A DNA stretch of 64,000 nt from Lacrimispora celerecrescens (GTDB taxonomy: Bacteria > Bacillota > Clostridia > Lachnospirales > Lachnospiraceae): NCBI RefSeq assembly GCF_000732605.1, contig NZ_JPME01000029.1:1-64000 (forward strand), given 5' to 3'. Shown here one piece after another: positions 52,384 through 60,481 of this stretch; position 1 is the stretch's first letter; every line of letters begins with the position of its first letter. A program made the position numbers and the translations under genes. Below the pieces are notes generated by a model, which saw only the letters and a list, made by a program, of their open reading frames with translations, made no database searches and had not been told where the DNA came from.

Positions 52384-52453
52384 TTTGGCACTAAAACTAG
52401 CGCCAAATCCTTGTTTCTTCCTGTTGAAATCTTAAGTTGACATTGATTATAAT
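52384..52453 (+). promoter_or_regulatory. MtlR-like operator and promoter of the EIICB-1 gene
   Basis: The inverted repeat TTTGGC...GCGCCAAA (52384-52407) resembles Firmicute MtlR boxes. Sixteen bases later comes TTGAAA (52424-52429), an 18-bp spacer and TATAAT (52448-52453). The copy at 57670-57740 has the same 16- and 18-bp spacings. The box lies upstream of -35, as expected for an activator. The segments 52284-52383 and 52454-52539 hold no gene. Confidence 0.7.
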
Positions 52454-52539: not shown

Positions 52540-53925
52540 ATGAAAGAGAAGGTACAAGTATTTGGCCGCTTTTTAAGCGGTATGGTAATGCCGAATATCG
52601 GTGCATTTATTGCATGGGGACTGATTACGGCATTGTTTATTCCCACCGGCTGGTATCCCAATGAAACACTTGGTGCCCTGGTATCCCCAATGGTTTCCAT
52701 GCTGTTGCCGCTTCTCATCGCTTATACGGGCGGCACGGCAGTCTACGGACAGCGGGGCGGTGTTATCGGTGCAATCACAGCCATGGGTGTGATTGTTGGC
52801 TCCAGTATTCCTATGTTTATGGGAGCAATGATCGTAGGACCTCTCAGCGCCTGGGTGATTAAGAAGTTTGACCGCAAGATCGAGAGCAAGATCCCTGCCG
52901 GGTTTGAGATGCTGATAAACAACTTTTCTCTGGGCATCATCGGTGCGATCCTGGCGGTAATCGCCTTAAAAGGAATTGCTCCTTTTGTTGAGGTGATGAA
53001 CCGGGTGATGGAAGCCGGAGTTGGATTCTTTGTGGATCACAGACTTCTTCCGCTGGCAAGTGTTTTTATCGAACCTGCTAAGATCCTGTTCCTCAATAAT
53101 GCCATCAACCATGGAATCCTTTCTCCTATGGGAATCCAGCAAGTTGAGGAAATCGGAAAGTCCATATTCTTTCTTCTTGAAGCGAATCCGGGGCCGGGAC
53201 TTGGTGTTTTACTGGCTTACTGCCTTGCAGGAAAAGGATCAGCCAAGAGCTCTGCACCTGGCGCAATTATCATTCACTTTTTAGGCGGAATCCACGAGAT
53301 TTATTTCCCATACATACTGATGAATCCTCTTTTACTTCTGGCGGTTGTATCAGGTGGGGCCAGCGGAATCTTCGTATTCCAGCTCCTTGGTGTTGGACTT
53401 ACCTCACCCGCATCTCCTGGAAGTATCCTTGCTGTTCTTGCAATGACACCAAGAGGCGGATACTTTGGAGTTTTAGCCGGAGTTACGGTTGCAGCAGTCG
53501 TTTCCTTCTTAGTTGCCCTTCCCTTACTGCGGTTTACAGGAAAAAGCGGGGATTTAGAAGAGTCAGCGGAAAAAGTGAAACAAATGAAGCAGGAGTCTAA
53601 GGGAAATCAGACCACAGAAAAGAAAATTATGCCAGCAGGACTCGTCAAAAAGATCGTGTTTGCCTGCGATGCAGGTATGGGCTCCAGCGCTATGGGCGCT
53701 ACCATATTGAAGAAAAAGCTGGCGGCAGCAGGATTTGGAGATATTGAAGTGGTTCATTCACCCGTATCCTCCATTCCACAGGATGCCCAGATTGTGGTGA
53801 CTCATAAAGAACTGAAGGAGCGCGCAGCCCGCAGCAATCCTGAGGCGGAACTGGTTTTAATCACTAATTTTATGGCGGCACCGGAATATGATGAACTGGT
53901 GGAAACGTTAAAAAATAAACAATAA
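52540..53925 (+). CDS. mtlA: PTS mannitol-type EIICB component 1
   Basis: The 461-residue membrane permease of the mannitol PTS starts at ATG 52540 (SD GAGGG). The EIIC part has MVMPNIGAFIAWGLITALFIP, ANPGPGLGVLLAY and the substrate-binding GGIHEIYFPYIL. A Lys/Glu linker (about 345-365) leads to EIIB with the phosphorylation Cys376 in VFACDAGMGSSAMG. EIIA is encoded separately at 57775. It imports and phosphorylates mannitol or a related hexitol at C1. Confidence 0.92.
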   Translation: MKEKVQVFGRFLSGMVMPNIGAFIAWGLITALFIPTGWYPNETLGALVSPMVSMLLPLLIAYTGGTAVYGQRGGVIGAITAMGVIVGSSIPMFMGAMIVGPLSAWVIKKFDRKIESKIPAGFEMLINNFSLGIIGAILAVIALKGIAPFVEVMNRVMEAGVGFFVDHRLLPLASVFIEPAKILFLNNAINHGILSPMGIQQVEEIGKSIFFLLEANPGPGLGVLLAYCLAGKGSAKSSAPGAIIIHFLGGIHEIYFPYILMNPLLLLAVVSGGASGIFVFQLLGVGLTSPASPGSILAVLAMTPRGGYFGVLAGVTVAAVVSFLVALPLLRFTGKSGDLEESAEKVKQMKQESKGNQTTEKKIMPAGLVKKIVFACDAGMGSSAMGATILKKKLAAAGFGDIEVVHSPVSSIPQDAQIVVTHKELKERAARSNPEAELVLITNFMAAPEYDELVETLKNKQ

Positions 53926-53965
53926 AATGAAATAGATAGCCTTTCTAGTATCCGATTGTGAATCA

Positions 53966-53974
53966 TGGTATAAT
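53966..53974 (+). promoter_or_regulatory. Extended -10 promoter before EIICB-2
   Basis: TGGTATAAT is an extended -10 without a clear -35. It would give a leader of about 190 bases before the gene at 54172. Confidence 0.5.
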
Positions 53975-53998
53975 GTACACGAAAGCAATGAGCAGTGC

Positions 53999-54113
53999 GA
54001 AATAATACAGAGATAAAATTTCGTTGTGCCTGCACATAAGAAATTCTATCCCTGTATTATTTCATAGGGCGAATGCCCGTGAGCTGGTAAACCTGCGGTT
54101 TTACCAGCTCCAC
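53999..54113 (+). other. Structured leader with three successive hairpins
   Basis: Hairpin A (53999-54063) has arms of about 31 bases, GAAATAATACAG pairing with CTGTATTATTTC at its base, only a few mismatches and a tip GTGC-CT-GCAC. Hairpin B is GGGC-GAAT-GCCC (54067-54078). Hairpin C (54079-54113) pairs GAGCTGGTAAA with TTTACCAGCTC. None has a following T tract. The element could be an RNA regulator or an inserted palindromic repeat. It matches no riboswitch I recognise. Confidence 0.65.
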
Positions 54114-54171
54114 TGCGGACCCACGGTACAATATAATTTACGTATAACGGATTCAAAAGGGGATTATATAA

Positions 54172-55515
54172 ATGAAATATGCGGGGAGAATACTAAAGCA
54201 ATACAGCAGGGTAATTGCCGAGTGCATACCTTTATTCGTGACAGCGGGGCTTCTGTCAGTCTTATCGGCAGTGATATTCCAGAATAGATACCTGCCTGAA
54301 ATGTCCAATATTTTGTCTTTTCTGGTGATTCCGGTATTTATGGGATACAAAGCAGGCACGATGTGCGGCGGGGATGTCGGCGGTTTAGCCGGCACCCTTG
54401 CCGCTTCTGCTGTTGTCATGGCAGAACCTGCTTCTGCCATGATTTTATCTGCCATAGCAGGCAGCATTGCCGGTTTATTATCCAGGAAGGGGCTGGACCG
54501 GATCAAACATCGGATTCCGGCCGGGTTTGAGATGCTCTTTAGTAACCTATATATATCGGGGCTAGGTTTATTAGCCGGAGCGCTTACCCATTACATGCTG
54601 GTACCGATAGCGGCATGGCTTCTTACTTTTTTAGGAAATGGCCTATCATTTATGATTGCAAGGGGAATCATTCCTTTCATCAGCTTCGTGGTAGAGCCTT
54701 TAAAAATAATTTTCTTTAATAACTGGATCAATCATGGCTTTTTCCTTCCCTTGGGATTGGAGCAGATGAAAACACAAGGAAGCTCCATCTTATTTCTCTT
54801 AGAGACCAATCCGGGCCCGGGATTTGGAATTCTCCTTGCCTATGCCCTGGTTTACCGGAATATGAGAAAGCAAATGCTCTCCAGCCTTATTATTCAGTCC
54901 CTGGGTGGTATCCATGAGGTTTATTTTCCCTATGTGCTGTCAGATATTCGATTATTGGGAGCTGCCATAACAGGCAGTATTGCGGGAAATTACTGCTTCA
55001 TGGTCACCGGAAGCGGTCTTCTGGGCCCGGCTTCTCCCGGAAGTATCATTACAATCATGATTATGGCAGACAAAAAACATTGGCTGGGAATTCTTACGGG
55101 AATCTTTGTCTCTGCCGGAGTGACTTGTCTTCTCTCCTGCCTGATTATGTCCGGAAAGAAACAAAAAACAGTTGTTGATGAAGAAATACTACAGAAAGAT
55201 GAAGGGATGCCAATGAAGAAAATGGAACATGCCAAAATCTATTTTGTTTGCGATGTTGGTTTGGGTTCCAGTGCCATGGCCAGCGCGTTGTTTAAGAAAA
55301 GACTGAAACTGGAAGGCTTAACAGATGTCCAGGTGTTTCACGTATCGGCTGACCGCATTCCGCCTGACGCGGATGCGATTGTTTGTCAAAAGGATTTTGC
55401 CCGTTCCCTGTCAGGAATTGATAAACCATGCTTTACAGTCAATAATCTTACGGATATGTCTGGCTATAAGGAACTCCTGAACTGGTTAATGGGAGGTGGA
55501 GAAAATGGCAAGTAA
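54172..55515 (+). CDS. PTS mannitol-type EIICB component 2 (divergent)
   Basis: The 447-residue protein is clearly homologous to the one at 52540: TNPGPGFGILLAYAL, LGGIHEVYFPYVLS and EIIB Cys in YFVCDVGLGSSAMAS are all kept. The N-terminal 60 residues differ strongly (VIAECIPLFVTAGLLSVLSA instead of the PNIGAFIAWG motif). It may transport another hexitol or ketose, or act as a sensor for MtlR, whose gene overlaps its end by 11 bp. Substrate is unknown. Confidence 0.85.
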   Translation: MKYAGRILKQYSRVIAECIPLFVTAGLLSVLSAVIFQNRYLPEMSNILSFLVIPVFMGYKAGTMCGGDVGGLAGTLAASAVVMAEPASAMILSAIAGSIAGLLSRKGLDRIKHRIPAGFEMLFSNLYISGLGLLAGALTHYMLVPIAAWLLTFLGNGLSFMIARGIIPFISFVVEPLKIIFFNNWINHGFFLPLGLEQMKTQGSSILFLLETNPGPGFGILLAYALVYRNMRKQMLSSLIIQSLGGIHEVYFPYVLSDIRLLGAAITGSIAGNYCFMVTGSGLLGPASPGSIITIMIMADKKHWLGILTGIFVSAGVTCLLSCLIMSGKKQKTVVDEEILQKDEGMPMKKMEHAKIYFVCDVGLGSSAMASALFKKRLKLEGLTDVQVFHVSADRIPPDADAIVCQKDFARSLSGIDKPCFTVNNLTDMSGYKELLNWLMGGGENGK

Positions 55516-57610
55516 TGATCTTACACCCAGAATGCAGCAGATCGTTCTGGCTCTTCTTAACGAGGACGGACCTATTCCTGTTAAGCAGCTTGCGGATCAG
55601 ATCCATATCAGCAAAAGAACGGTACAAAGAGAGCTGGAGTATATTCCCAGAGTGCTAAAGAAATACGGGCTCACCTTTTGCTCAAAAACGGGAACCGGTA
55701 TCTGGCTGGAGGGAGATCAGGATCAGATCGAAGCCATTAAAGCTGAACTTGAAGAGGATGATGCTCTTGATGTTTCTGACCGGATTGAACGCCAGAAGCG
55801 CCTTACTCTTGAGATTCTCAAGGACAAGACCTTAAAAAAACTATATTACTACAGTGACTTATTTGGAGTCAGTGAAGCCACCGTCAGTTCAGATTTAGAG
55901 GTAGTAAAAGAGTGGTTTCACAAATGTCATCTGGAGATAAAGAGAAAACCCGGATATGGTGTGTTTATTGAGGGCAGCGAACGGAATTTCCGCCGTGCCC
56001 TGCGCGTGTTTATTGATGAAAACATCCATACGGAAATCATACAGGAGATGTATGAGGACAGGAACCAGTCTGTGTTAAACGTGATACAGAATAAAAGTGA
56101 ACGGAATATTTACCGGATCTTAGATGACGATATTGTAAAAAGGGTGACGGCCTGCATCTTAAGAATCCGGGATAAACGCATTCTCAATTTAACCCAGGAT
56201 TCTTACCTTGGGCTGGTGATCCATGTGGCTATTGCTGTGAACCGGATCCGAAGGCAGGAGATCATTGAGGAAAATTCTCTCATGACAGATGGTTTGCGGA
56301 ATGATCAGGATTACGACCTGGCAAAGAGAATCACCAAATCCCTGGAAGATGAATTTCAGATTCAGATCCCGGAAATTGAGTGTGCCTATATTTGTCTGCA
56401 TATTAAAGGCTCCAAAATCCAGCAGCTGAATATTGACGAGAAATCAAGAAGTGAAATAGAGGAATCCAGGGAACTGTGGGATGTGGTCAATGAGATGATC
56501 GACTGTTATGACGACAGTATTGCCTATCTTCTAAAGCAGGATGAGGAATTTGTGATTCAGGGATTGATTGCCCATTTAAAGCCGACTCTGGTCCGCTTAA
56601 CCAATGGCATGAAGATCCAGAATCCTTTGCTGGAACAAATTAAGCAGGATTATCCGGTGATATTTGAACGGTGCAGATCGGTTGCAAAGGTGATCGAAGG
56701 CCGGTATGGGTATGAAGTGCCGGAATCAGAGATTGGCTTTCTTGCCATTCATTTCGGCGCGGCAGAGGTTCGGATGGAAAGCAGGAAGGAAAGCCGGAGA
56801 AAGGTAAATATTGGGATCGTCTGCGCCAGCGGGATCGGTATCTCACGGCTCATGTCTTCCAAGGTAGCCAGGGATTTTGCAGACAGGGTGGAGCTGTCGG
56901 TCTATGGAATGACGGATCTGTCTCCTTACGTGCTAAGCAAGACGGATTTCTTTGTATCCACCATACCAATTAAGGAGGAGGCTGATATCCTGTATGTAAG
57001 CCCCCTGCTTCCTGCTGAGGATATGGAACAGATCGCCGGAAAGGTACGCCGGTGTGAATTTATGCCTAAAAAGCAGGATAACCAGGAGTTTACCATTCAA
57101 TTAGATCAGGTGAATTTTATTGCCGTTCAGATTAAAAATGTCATTCGGCTTATGGAATATCAACGTGTAAATAATGGGATCACCTTTGAAGAACTGCTGA
57201 TTGCTGTCAGCGAGAAGCTGGCTGCCTATCCGGAACGGCAGAGCATCATTCAGGAGGATTTAATGAGGAGAGAACGGCTTTGCAGCCAGATATTTCCTGA
57301 TTTAAGCTTTGCCCTGCTTCATGCCAGAACAGAAGGAGTGGTAAAGCCGGTGTTTTCGGTGTGCCAGACAAAGGATGGTGAGCCGTTTAGTGACCCTTAT
57401 TTTAGGGGAGTATGCGTTGTATTAATCATGCTGGTACCAAAGGATGATCATGAAGTAGAAAACAGTGATATCCTGGGTGTGTTAAGTGAGCGGCTGATCG
57501 AGGAGGAAGAGTTTCTGGATACGGTAAGACATGGGGGAAAAGAGGAGATAAGAGCTTTGGTTTCCCAGTATTTAAACCAATATTTCAAACATTATCTGGA
57601 TAAGATATAA
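55505..57610 (+). CDS. mtlR: MtlR-type PRD transcriptional activator
   Basis: From ATG 55505 (SD GGGAGGTGG) the protein has 701 residues. Order: N-terminal HTH (PVKQLADQIHISKRTVQREL, residues ~18-40) and second HTH-like region (FGVSEATVSSDL); PRD1 and PRD2 (about 190-400, with VIHVAIAVNRI and AIHFGAAEV); EIIB-Gat-like domain with Cys in IGIVCASGIGISRL; and a C-terminal EIIA-like domain with His in FALLHARTEGVV. PTS phosphorylation of these domains controls activity. It should bind the paired operators at 52384 and 57670. Confidence 0.93.
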   Translation: MASNDLTPRMQQIVLALLNEDGPIPVKQLADQIHISKRTVQRELEYIPRVLKKYGLTFCSKTGTGIWLEGDQDQIEAIKAELEEDDALDVSDRIERQKRLTLEILKDKTLKKLYYYSDLFGVSEATVSSDLEVVKEWFHKCHLEIKRKPGYGVFIEGSERNFRRALRVFIDENIHTEIIQEMYEDRNQSVLNVIQNKSERNIYRILDDDIVKRVTACILRIRDKRILNLTQDSYLGLVIHVAIAVNRIRRQEIIEENSLMTDGLRNDQDYDLAKRITKSLEDEFQIQIPEIECAYICLHIKGSKIQQLNIDEKSRSEIEESRELWDVVNEMIDCYDDSIAYLLKQDEEFVIQGLIAHLKPTLVRLTNGMKIQNPLLEQIKQDYPVIFERCRSVAKVIEGRYGYEVPESEIGFLAIHFGAAEVRMESRKESRRKVNIGIVCASGIGISRLMSSKVARDFADRVELSVYGMTDLSPYVLSKTDFFVSTIPIKEEADILYVSPLLPAEDMEQIAGKVRRCEFMPKKQDNQEFTIQLDQVNFIAVQIKNVIRLMEYQRVNNGITFEELLIAVSEKLAAYPERQSIIQEDLMRRERLCSQIFPDLSFALLHARTEGVVKPVFSVCQTKDGEPFSDPYFRGVCVVLIMLVPKDDHEVENSDILGVLSERLIEEEEFLDTVRHGGKEEIRALVSQYLNQYFKHYLDKI

Positions 57611-57626
57611 TATAAAAGCAAGGTGA

Positions 57627-57655
57627 AAGCCGGGCCCGAAAGGGCCCGGCTTTTT
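57627..57655 (+). terminator. Terminator after mtlR
   Basis: AGCCGGGCCC and GGGCCCGGCT with a GAAA loop and TTTTTC. Confidence 0.95.
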
Positions 57656-57669
57656 CTGTTGGTTTCAGA

Positions 57670-57740
57670 TTTGGCGTTATCTGATGGCGCCAAATGCCAT
57701 TTTGTTTTCATTGAAAAGGAGGAGATAACACCCCTATAAT
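57670..57740 (+). promoter_or_regulatory. MtlR-like operator and promoter of the EIIA operon
   Basis: Inverted repeat TTTGGC...GGCGCCAAA (57670-57694), 16 bases, TTGAAA (57711-57716), 18-bp spacer, TATAAT (57735-57740). Box sequence, -35 hexamer and both spacings match the element at 52384, which makes a common activator very likely. Confidence 0.75.
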
Positions 57741-57774
57741 TTAGTTAGAAAGTTAACACAGGAGGGCAAGAAAC

Positions 57775-58245
57775 GTGTTTGGCTACGGGAAAAAGAATGT
57801 AGAAAAAAGTGCAGAGCTTCTGGAGCTTGGGAATATTCGTTTGAATTGTAAACCCGGGGAAAAGGAGGCGGTAATAAGGGAGGTAGGGCAGCTGCTTTAT
57901 CAGTGCGGCTGTGTTGAAGAATCCTACATAGAGGCTATGCTTCAGCGTGAGCTGACGTTTTCCACGAATATCGGCAATGGAATTGCACTTCCCCATGGCG
58001 TAGAGGCAGCTAAAAAATCGGTTAAGCGCTCCGGCATTGCAGTTATGGTTTTCCCTGAGGGAACAGACTGGGGAGGAGAAAAGGTAAAACTGGTCATAGG
58101 GATTGCAGGGGCAGGAGAGGAACATTTGGAAATACTCTCAATCATCGCTGAGTGTCTGGCTGATCCGGCTGATGTAGAACGGATTACCGGATGCAGTGCA
58201 GAAGAAATCCTTACCATGTTTACAGGAAAGAGGTGTCCGCAATGA
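57775..58245 (+). CDS. mtlF: PTS mannitol-type EIIA component
   Basis: The 156-residue phosphocarrier has the active-site His74 in NGIALPHGV and VMVFPEGTDWGGEKVKLVIGIAG. It passes phosphate from HPr to the EIIB domains of the two EIICB proteins. GTG start with CAGGAGGG upstream. It ends in an ATGA overlap with the kinase gene. Confidence 0.93.
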   Translation: MFGYGKKNVEKSAELLELGNIRLNCKPGEKEAVIREVGQLLYQCGCVEESYIEAMLQRELTFSTNIGNGIALPHGVEAAKKSVKRSGIAVMVFPEGTDWGGEKVKLVIGIAGAGEEHLEILSIIAECLADPADVERITGCSAEEILTMFTGKRCPQ

Positions 58246-59189
58246 TCGTTACAGTAACAATGAATCCGGCCATTGATAAAACCGTAGATATTGACCGGTT
58301 TGAACGGGGAGATTTAAACAGAATAGAACGTGTGGAGTTAGATGCCGGAGGTAAAGGCATCAATGTCTCCAAGACCATCAGGGAATTAGGCGGAGAAAGC
58401 ATTGCCATGGGCTTTGTGGGAGGAACCAGCGGAACCATCATAAAACATGTGCTGGCTGACCAGAACATTCAGACAGATTTCGTAGAAGTAAAAGGGGAGA
58501 CGAGAACGAATCTGAAGATAGTAGAGGAAAATGGAGAGGTGACAGAGCTTAATGAACCTGGACCTGAGGTGTCAAAAGAGCAGCTGGAAGATCTTCTTGA
58601 TAGGCTGAATGGCTATGCAAATCCGTATACCTTGTTTGTACTGGCGGGAAGCATACCGGCTGGCATACCAACGGATATATACCGGAGGATCACGGAAGAA
58701 GTCCACCGGAAAGGGGCAAAGGTCTTGTTAGATGCAGACGGTCCGCTGTTTGCCGAATCCTTAAAAGCAGCACCGGATATGTTAAAGCCTAACCGTTCAG
58801 AGCTGGAACGTTATTACCAGATGGATTACCGTGCATCGGAACAGGAGCTGGTTTCCATGGGTGAAAAGCTGCTGGATCATGGAACCGATATGGTTGCGAT
58901 ATCCCTTGGCCAGATGGGAGCATTATTTTTAACAGGGGATAAACGGTACCGGTGCCCCGGGCTTCGTGTGAAGGCACATTCAACGGTAGGTGCCGGAGAT
59001 GCCCTGGTGGGAGCCATGGCTTACGCCTGGAATGAGAAGCTTCCCCTTGAAACATGCATCAGATTATGCATGGGAGCCTCGGCAGGTGCTGTTACCAGCA
59101 TTGGAACCAAACCGCCTCATCGCAGTCTGGTAGATGAACTCATGCAGCAGGTGGAATTGTTGGAAATCCAGAAATATATTGATAAATAA
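58242..59189 (+). CDS. fruK: 1-phosphofructokinase (PfkB family)
   Basis: The 315-residue kinase starts at the ATG overlapping the EIIA stop (MIVTVTMNPAIDKTVDIDRF). Family signatures are LDAGGKGINVSKTIRELGG and the catalytic AHSTVGAGDALVGAMAYAW. It phosphorylates fructose-1-phosphate to fructose-1,6-bisphosphate; the related tagatose-6-phosphate kinase activity cannot be ruled out. Presence of this kinase, with no mtlD, is the key to the proposed fructose-1-P route. Confidence 0.88.
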   Translation: MIVTVTMNPAIDKTVDIDRFERGDLNRIERVELDAGGKGINVSKTIRELGGESIAMGFVGGTSGTIIKHVLADQNIQTDFVEVKGETRTNLKIVEENGEVTELNEPGPEVSKEQLEDLLDRLNGYANPYTLFVLAGSIPAGIPTDIYRRITEEVHRKGAKVLLDADGPLFAESLKAAPDMLKPNRSELERYYQMDYRASEQELVSMGEKLLDHGTDMVAISLGQMGALFLTGDKRYRCPGLRVKAHSTVGAGDALVGAMAYAWNEKLPLETCIRLCMGASAGAVTSIGTKPPHRSLVDELMQQVELLEIQKYIDK

Positions 59190-59206
59190 GCTTGGAGGAT
59201 AGAAAT

Positions 59207-60481
59207 ATGAAAACAAAAGCGGTAAGAATGTATGGCACAGATGATTTAAGGTTAGAAGAGTTTGAATTGCCTCAAATTGCTGAAAATGAGATTCTTGTAA
59301 AAATCATGAGTGACAGCATCTGCATGTCTACTTACAAACTGGTAAAACAGGGGAAAAAACATAAAAGGGCTCCCCAGAATATAGATACCAATCCGGTGAT
59401 TGTTGGTCATGAATGCTCAGGACTGATTGTAGAAGTGGGAAAAAAGTGGCAGGAACAGTTTCGCCCGGGACAAAAGTTTTCTCTGCAGCCTGCTTTAAAT
59501 TACATGGGAAAACTGGATTCGCCGGGATATTCTTATGAATTCTGCGGAGGCGCCTGTACATACTGCATCATGCCAAACGAGGTCATGGAATTGGGGTGCT
59601 TGCTGGATTACACGGGAGATAGTTTTTTTGAGGCATCCCTTGGAGAACCAATGAGCTGTATCATAGGCGGATTTCATGCCAACTATCATACCAATAAAAG
59701 GAATTATGATCATGCCATGGGGACAAAAGTAGATGGAAGTATCCTGATCATGGGAGGCTGCGGACCTATGGGCCTAGGAGCGGTAAGCTATGGCCTTCAG
59801 TTTGAGAATAAGCCGAAGAGGATAGTCGTTACGGATATCAGCGATGAGCGGATTGCCCGGGCCAGGGAAGTGATTTCAGAAGAATCCGCAAGGGAGAGAG
59901 GAATTGAGCTTCTTTATGTAAATACCGATAAGATGGCAGATCCTGTATCTGATTTAATGGCTATTACAGGCGGCCAGGGCTATGATGACGTGTTTGTATA
60001 TGTTCCTGTGAAAGAGGTTGCAGAGATGGGAGATAAGCTTCTGGCCTTTGACGGTTGTATGAACTTCTTTGCCGGTCCATCAGACAGCCAGTTTAAAGCA
60101 GAAATCAATCTTTATAACTGCCACTATACAAGTACTCACATTATGGGAACCACCGGCGGCAATACAGATGATTTAATTGAGGCCAATAAGCTCTCTGCAG
60201 AAGGTGCCATAGAAGCGGCTGTTATGGTAACCCATGTAGGAGGAATTGACAGCATTGTAGAAGCAACCAAGAATCTGCCGTCCATTCCTGGAGGAAAGAA
60301 GCTTGCCTACACACAATTTGATATGCCTTTGACGGCTATTGAAGACTTTGAGAAGCTGGGCAGCACCGATCCGCTGTTTAAAAAATTAAACGACTCTTGT
60401 AAAGCGCACAAGGGATTATGGAATGGGGAGGCAGAAAAGATTCTGTTTGATCATTTTGAAATTGATCCAAAGGAATTGTAA
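59207..60481 (+). CDS. Zinc-type dehydrogenase, L-sorbose-1-phosphate reductase-like
   Basis: From ATG 59207 (SD TTGGAGGAT) the 424-residue MDR-superfamily enzyme has the zinc-domain motifs SDSICMSTYKL and VIVGHECSGLI and the Rossmann segment ILIMGGCGPMGLGAVSYGL. Length and N-terminus recall SorE, which interconverts L-sorbose-1-P and glucitol-6-P. The oxidised carbon there neighbours the phosphate-bearing carbon. With a mannitol PTS it would make fructose-1-P. A sorbose or sorbitol role is the alternative. Confidence 0.8.
   Translation: MKTKAVRMYGTDDLRLEEFELPQIAENEILVKIMSDSICMSTYKLVKQGKKHKRAPQNIDTNPVIVGHECSGLIVEVGKKWQEQFRPGQKFSLQPALNYMGKLDSPGYSYEFCGGACTYCIMPNEVMELGCLLDYTGDSFFEASLGEPMSCIIGGFHANYHTNKRNYDHAMGTKVDGSILIMGGCGPMGLGAVSYGLQFENKPKRIVVTDISDERIARAREVISEESARERGIELLYVNTDKMADPVSDLMAITGGQGYDDVFVYVPVKEVAEMGDKLLAFDGCMNFFAGPSDSQFKAEINLYNCHYTSTHIMGTTGGNTDDLIEANKLSAEGAIEAAVMVTHVGGIDSIVEATKNLPSIPGGKKLAYTQFDMPLTAIEDFEKLGSTDPLFKKLNDSCKAHKGLWNGEAEKILFDHFEIDPKEL

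Follow-up and report, generated by a model that had tools for sequence, protein, structure and literature searches.

We describe here a locus at positions 52540-60481 of a 64,000-nucleotide window (the whole stretch of DNA analyzed, from contig NZ_JPME01000029.1 of the Lachnospiraceae member Lacrimispora celerecrescens) that, judging from its genes and their relatives, probably constitutes a mannitol regulon. In it a zinc dehydrogenase of the SorE/YggP family (hereafter DH) stands in place of the mannitol-1-phosphate dehydrogenase MtlD, and the pathway would run from mannitol via mannitol-1-phosphate and fructose-1-phosphate to fructose-1,6-bisphosphate. The route for D-mannitol taken up by the phosphotransferase system (PTS) is usually taken to involve MtlD and fructose-6-phosphate. 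We also favor, a shade less firmly, the broader proposal that the DH represents a widespread, undescribed class of mannitol-1-phosphate 2-dehydrogenases in the SorE superfamily, which has repeatedly been swapped with MtlD across Clostridia, routing PTS mannitol via fructose-1-phosphate and FruK past fructose-6-phosphate; YggP of the Escherichia coli cmt locus would then be a related enzyme that acts on a polyol phosphate of similar kind, and YggC would be its kinase.

The genes named in the original prediction, namely those for an EIICB, an EIIA, an MtlR-type regulator, a 1-phosphofructokinase and a SorE-like zinc dehydrogenase, are all present on the + strand, and the start given there for the EIICB is indeed an ATG; that inventory overlooked a second EIICB gene, as well as a hairpin with a second promoter-like site and two palindromes taken up further below. 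The coding sequences are as follows:

52540..53925, + strand: MtlA-like, mannitol-type EIICB (NCBIfam profile scores, comparison with E. coli MtlA, motif)
54172..55515, + strand: second, divergent EIICB, 33% identical to the first and below the MtlA cut-offs (profile and identity)
55496..57610, + strand: MtlR-like regulator with helix-turn-helix (HTH), PRD and EIIA-like domains (domain profiles)
57775..58245, + strand: EIIA of the mannitol/fructose type, family PTS_EIIA_2 (NCBIfam)
58242..59189, + strand: FruK, 1-phosphofructokinase family, ATG at 58242 (curated NCBIfam model)
59207..60481, + strand: SorE/YggP-family zinc dehydrogenase (DH), ATG at 59207; candidate mannitol-1-phosphate 2-dehydrogenase, a predicted activity

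By these coordinates the EIIA and fruK frames share 4 bases, and the ATG of the DH gene follows fruK after a gap of 17 bases. The mannitol-type EIICB, the EIIA and the MtlR-type regulator, as recognized by profiles and motif, are those of a classical mtl operon; mtlD itself is found neither in the operon nor in the genome. A search of the organism's own assembly (99.07% complete) with the NCBIfam MtlD model returned no match at E<=0.001, in agreement with the original prediction, which had noted that the locus lacks MtlD and had called for a genome-wide search. The genome has two matches to Mannitol_dh_C: one is a tagaturonate reductase, above the cut-off of its model, and the other lies below all cut-offs and is closest to D-arabinitol 4-dehydrogenase and fructuronate reductase. 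On the MtlD-model search and the identities of these two proteins together, we rejected an MtlD elsewhere in the genome.

Gene-order comparison of seven MtlD loci with six DH loci indicates that the DH occupies the slot of mtlD. The former (L153, L154, L155, L157, L162, L165 and L167) display the order mtlA-mtlR-mtlF-mtlD; of the latter, L133, L134, L137 and L138 have mtlA-mtlR-mtlF-DH, with fruK inserted before the DH gene in L135 and L136. The DH thus partners MtlA where MtlD is missing, as a mannitol-1-phosphate 2-dehydrogenase should, and the same displacement is seen across genomes. In a sample of 200 genomes of the family, with a DH threshold of E<=1e-60, MtlA occurs in 24, the DH in 25 and both in 17 (Fisher p=1.5e-13). 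Those 17 show no MtlD beside MtlA among the matches listed, six other MtlA genomes have MtlD beside MtlA without a DH, and one (G116) has neither. MtlA and DH are close together on one contig in 14 of the 17; contig ends separate them in G019 and G169, and in G117 MtlA lies 25 kb from the DH, which adjoins a divergent EIICB. Frames of 464-467 residues from the wider Mannitol_dh_C family, on other contigs of G094 and G163, were left unclassified. A second sample, drawn from the class, comprised 393 genomes, and MtlA occurs in 26 of them. Nine of these carry a DH at the mtlA locus and are free of MtlD matches genome-wide, 16 have MtlD (which in G482 and G515 is on a different contig) and one (G344) has neither.

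These samples are a fairer test than the neighborhoods of the best 80 of 184 DH relatives, because the latter were picked by likeness to the DH. Among those 80, mtlA is found in 63, mtlR in 66, an EIIA gene in 70 and a fruK-type kinase in 68, many of the misses being due to contig ends; L036 and L063 have no mtlA upstream despite several kilobases of flank, and L067 has only a fragment of it. Their available flanks contain no MtlD, sorbose PTS or SorD. On the recurrence of gene set and order in relatives we rejected a chance neighborhood. Loci of the Eubacterium barkeri/callanderi type (L064, L085, L139) combine the DH with a fused EIICBA and a divergent DeoR-like regulator, and have no fruK nearby.

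The identity of the transporter bears directly on the substrate. The EIICB at 52540 scores above both NCBIfam MtlA cut-offs (692.6 vs 589 and 528.6 vs 468.4 bits), is 61% (BLAST) or 62% (alignment) identical to E. coli MtlA, and shares with it the motif NNAINHG (MtlA residues 190-196). The final NHG of this motif is retained in 17/18 DH rows, 54/61 rows with both DH and FruK, and 21/22 MtlD rows, the remainder reading NQG; NNAIDQG or NNVIDQG is found in all four YggC-type rows, of which two represent the same E. coli locus. In a tree of 77 EIIC sequences, DH- and MtlD-partnered transporters interleave, with 10 changes and 9 independent pairs on starred branches (for the trees here a 'quick' method was used, and the L007-L086 rows were thinned to one in four, with some chosen rows added). 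A single transporter lineage that repeatedly swaps DH and MtlD most likely delivers one substrate, mannitol-1-phosphate.

The kinase provides the next line of evidence. The operon FruK is above the TIGR03828 equivalog cut-off for 1-phosphofructokinase (about 324.9 vs 292 bits), and it is an extra copy, because two further kinases of the genome also pass that cut-off, one of them beside fruA on contig C12. Among the sampled loci, a fruK-type kinase is near 10/19 of the DH type as against 1/19 of the MtlD type (p=0.003; rows L107, L119, L120, L158, L163, L164 and L169 were left out before counting); when all EIICB rows examined are taken, the figures are 61/83 and 1/24. L100, L109, L110 and L111, with neither DH nor MtlD near the EIIC, are in neither count, and L099, with a divergent EIICB, is uncounted. 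The kinases of L098, L103 and L105, which occur in other gene orders, also pass the cut-off; in L103 and L105 the kinase shares 59-62% identity with the fru-type FruK of contig C12 and only roughly a third with the operon FruK, and this greater closeness in sequence suggests a separate recruitment.

The promoter-proximal regions tie these genes together further. The control elements detected are:

52384..52407, + strand: palindrome TTTGGC-N12-GCCAAA 5' of mtlA, a putative operator for the regulator, which also precedes mtlA in relatives
52424..52453, + strand: promoter-like TTGAAA-18-TATAAT, 11/12 matches
57625..57654, + strand: terminator-like hairpin of 13 pairs, 3' of the regulator gene
57670..57694, + strand: palindrome TTTGGC-N13-GCCAAA 5' of EIIA-fruK-DH (alignments and pattern scan)
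57711..57740, + strand: promoter-like TTGAAA-18-TATAAT, from the same scan as the site at 52424

The hairpin after the regulator gene and the second promoter-like site suggest two transcription units. The region scanned contains 19 promoter-like sites vs 16.0 expected and 18 terminator-like ones vs 8.6 expected, so the promoter-like site at 52424 is weak by itself. Each palindrome precedes a TTGAAA-18-TATAAT site, and the pattern TTTGGC-N12/13-GCCAAA has these two occurrences in the whole window and no others, as against 0.06 expected by chance, a figure that is partly circular because the pattern was derived from the same two sites. When the two upstream regions were compared by local ungapped matching, only a weak match resulted; the palindromes emerged from alignments, which show both of them conserved in the window and in six close relatives. 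Independent support comes from recurrence in relatives, many of them near kin: a half-site score of at least 10/12 is reached before mtlA in 51/80 DH rows vs 35/1600 single-base shuffles, and before the EIIA gene in 41/85 vs 37/1700. At MtlD loci it is reached before mtlA in 4/24 (vs 4/480 shuffles; perfect in L116 and L166) and before the EIIA gene in 0/4. The shared palindrome ties fruK and the DH to the mannitol transporter, and we infer that the PRD regulator binds it.

The DH itself belongs to the SorE/YggP superfamily by 41-52% identity across its full length: 52% to E. coli YggP, 46% to Citrobacter SorE, 43.5% to Klebsiella SorE and 41% to a relative from Lactiplantibacillus encoded next to sorbose PTS genes. 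Its closest relatives include Lacrimispora records at 89-91% identity, and no curated NCBIfam model names it. Comparison of MtlA-partnered DHs (n=20), a third clade (n=9) and five SorE-clade proteins identified 74 positions that, allowing for no more than one exception, are conserved in the first two sets, including C44, H73, E74, E152 and D215 (counted from the TTG at 59192). We take the first four to match the zinc-binding residues of sorbitol dehydrogenase; D215 presumably fits the use of NAD. Among PDB entries, sorbitol dehydrogenases match best, at ~50 bits; a predicted structure was poor (mean pLDDT 61) and was not used. A tree of 78 DH sequences groups the three SorE proteins on one branch (97*), which is separate from most DHs partnered with MtlA. 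Members of the third clade (L142, L143, L145, L146), ~58% identical to the window DH, adjoin a DeoR-type gene, followed in L143 and L146 by genes for E1/E2/E3-type parts of a 2-oxoacid dehydrogenase complex. Elsewhere in the window's own genome (L004, contig C15), a gene for another zinc dehydrogenase is followed by one for a third 1-phosphofructokinase-type kinase and preceded by one for a sugar kinase of FGGY look.

SorE interconverts L-sorbose-1-phosphate and D-glucitol-6-phosphate at the carbon next to the phosphate, and D-mannitol-1-phosphate, viewed from its phosphate end, differs from D-glucitol-6-phosphate only at the far end; hence the same chemistry on D-mannitol-1-phosphate gives D-fructose-1-phosphate, the substrate of FruK. 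The original prediction had this stereochemistry right by what is generally known of these compounds. Oxidation at C5, as by MtlD, gives fructose-6-phosphate and would leave fruK without purpose. Going by family, motif and tree, the EIICB and EIIA would import D-mannitol as mannitol-1-phosphate. The DH, in place of MtlD, would then oxidize C2, rather than C5, to yield fructose-1-phosphate, probably with NAD+, and the operon FruK, if its curated family model is a guide, would convert this to fructose-1,6-bisphosphate. Fructose-6-phosphate and 6-phosphofructokinase would be bypassed at an equal cost in ATP, and the shared palindrome would let the PRD regulator govern both transcription units. 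The exclusion of MtlD, the operon slot, the interleaved transporters, the FruK association and the palindrome thus lend indirect support to the mannitol route via fructose-1-phosphate that had been predicted.

Several observations weigh against this route. Corrected for ancestry, the FruK association comes down to ~3 pairs to 0 with 6 ties, uniform in direction and not significant; 9/19 sampled DH loci have no adjacent fruK, including the Eubacterium-type loci, L133, L134, L137 and L138; and the MtlD locus L166 has fruK beside mtlA. Three MtlD genomes (G253, G313, G339) carry a DH relative elsewhere and 8/25 family-sample DH genomes are without MtlA, so membership in the DH family alone gives no substrate. 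MtlA and DH are both missing from G405, a genome assigned to the genus of the window. The partial text of a report on E. limosum SA11, a strain not checked for the locus, describes it as not growing on mannitol and names no mannitol PTS (PMC4791908). The DH loci without fruK and L166 also speak for a reading in which the DH replaces MtlD but oxidizes C5 to fructose-6-phosphate, with fruK there for some other purpose, for instance the joint use of fructose; the slot and the transporters are, after all, those of MtlD. We consider this unlikely, given that the accepted SorE chemistry acts next to the phosphate, that fruK is far commoner near DH than MtlD loci and in several gene orders, that the palindrome precedes the EIIA-fruK-DH unit, and that the genome already has a fruK beside fruA.

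It is distinctly improbable that the main substrate is instead the sugar of the second EIICB, another hexitol or pentitol whose phosphate would be handled by the DH and the kinase, with mannitol secondary. A second EIICB is found in 19/60 relatives' loci holding a full-length EIICB (in L064 it is a 49% MtlA-like copy), and in L019 and L099 the divergent type is the only one near the DH. However, 41/60 of those loci have a single EIICB, and it is the MtlA-like one that interleaves with MtlD partners. The second EIICB of the window retains the phospho-cysteine motif, and its relatives elsewhere are highly divergent from one another. Very improbable, too, is a sorbose/glucitol operon, in which the DH would act as SorE between L-sorbose-1-phosphate and glucitol-6-phosphate: it has in its favor the 41-46% identity to SorE and the shared conserved residues, zinc-ligand positions included, but SorE operons use a mannose-family PTS and SorD-type short-chain dehydrogenase/reductase (SDR), whereas the window DH, on a separate branch, is accompanied by FruK and an EIIC of the mannitol type that has the motif of E. 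coli MtlA. We rejected it on the separate branch of the three SorE proteins and the lack of a sorbose PTS or SorD in the available flanks of the relatives noted above; the Klebsiella, Citrobacter and Lactiplantibacillus sorbose operons share with the locus the protein superfamily.

The preferred route via fructose-1-phosphate can be set beside other known systems. The classical Firmicutes mtlA-mtlR-mtlF-mtlD operon matches the locus in transporter family, in gene order and in having a PRD regulator and an EIIA; where it has MtlD, converting mannitol-1-phosphate to fructose-6-phosphate, the window has the SorE-family zinc dehydrogenase, often with fruK in relatives. In the E. coli K-12 cluster cmtB-cmtA-yggP-yggF-fumE-yggC, annotated as a mannitol PTS, a mannitol-family EIICB likewise adjoins the 52% identical dehydrogenase; there is no fruK, and the cluster has the P-loop protein YggC and a fructose-bisphosphatase (FBPase). 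CmtA reads NNAIDQG rather than NNAINHG, and its substrate may therefore differ. The cmtA-yggP-yggC set recurs in distant bacteria (L171, E. coli K-12; L091, Photobacterium; L107, the Lachnospiraceae-family genome G027), and YggC, a nucleoside-kinase-like protein, may be the sugar-phosphate kinase of these sets. In L158 and L164, CmtA-like EIICs occur with an MtlD relative and two further genes, presumably ribulose-phosphate-epimerase-like and SIS-type, perhaps as a pentitol system.

In the open-licence literature we found, among the papers listed, no description of PTS mannitol catabolism via fructose-1-phosphate, which is not proof of its absence, and the phrase 'mannitol-1-phosphate 2-dehydrogenase' was not found there. 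The nearest case is Haloarcula hispanica, where, according to the excerpted text of PMC11519228, mannitol carbon does reach glycolysis through 1-phosphofructokinase; the excerpt differs from our scheme in having ABC uptake and conversion of free mannitol to fructose first, with no PTS and no mannitol-1-phosphate step. For Defluviitalea phaphyphila, a figure legend names mannitol-1-phosphate dehydrogenase and FRUK, and the text, in the portion available, gives fructose-6-phosphate as the product (PMC4818487).

Should our proposal hold, annotations would be misreading the route by which many Lachnospiraceae and other Clostridia use mannitol. Mannitol, a polyol, is common in diets and in microbes, and fructose-1-phosphate is a regulatory metabolite in some bacteria; on the proposed route carbon from the former would skip 6-phosphofructokinase, and levels of the latter would rise. 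The proposal would also offer a clue to E. coli YggP and a testable role for a dehydrogenase family that has no close relative among solved structures.

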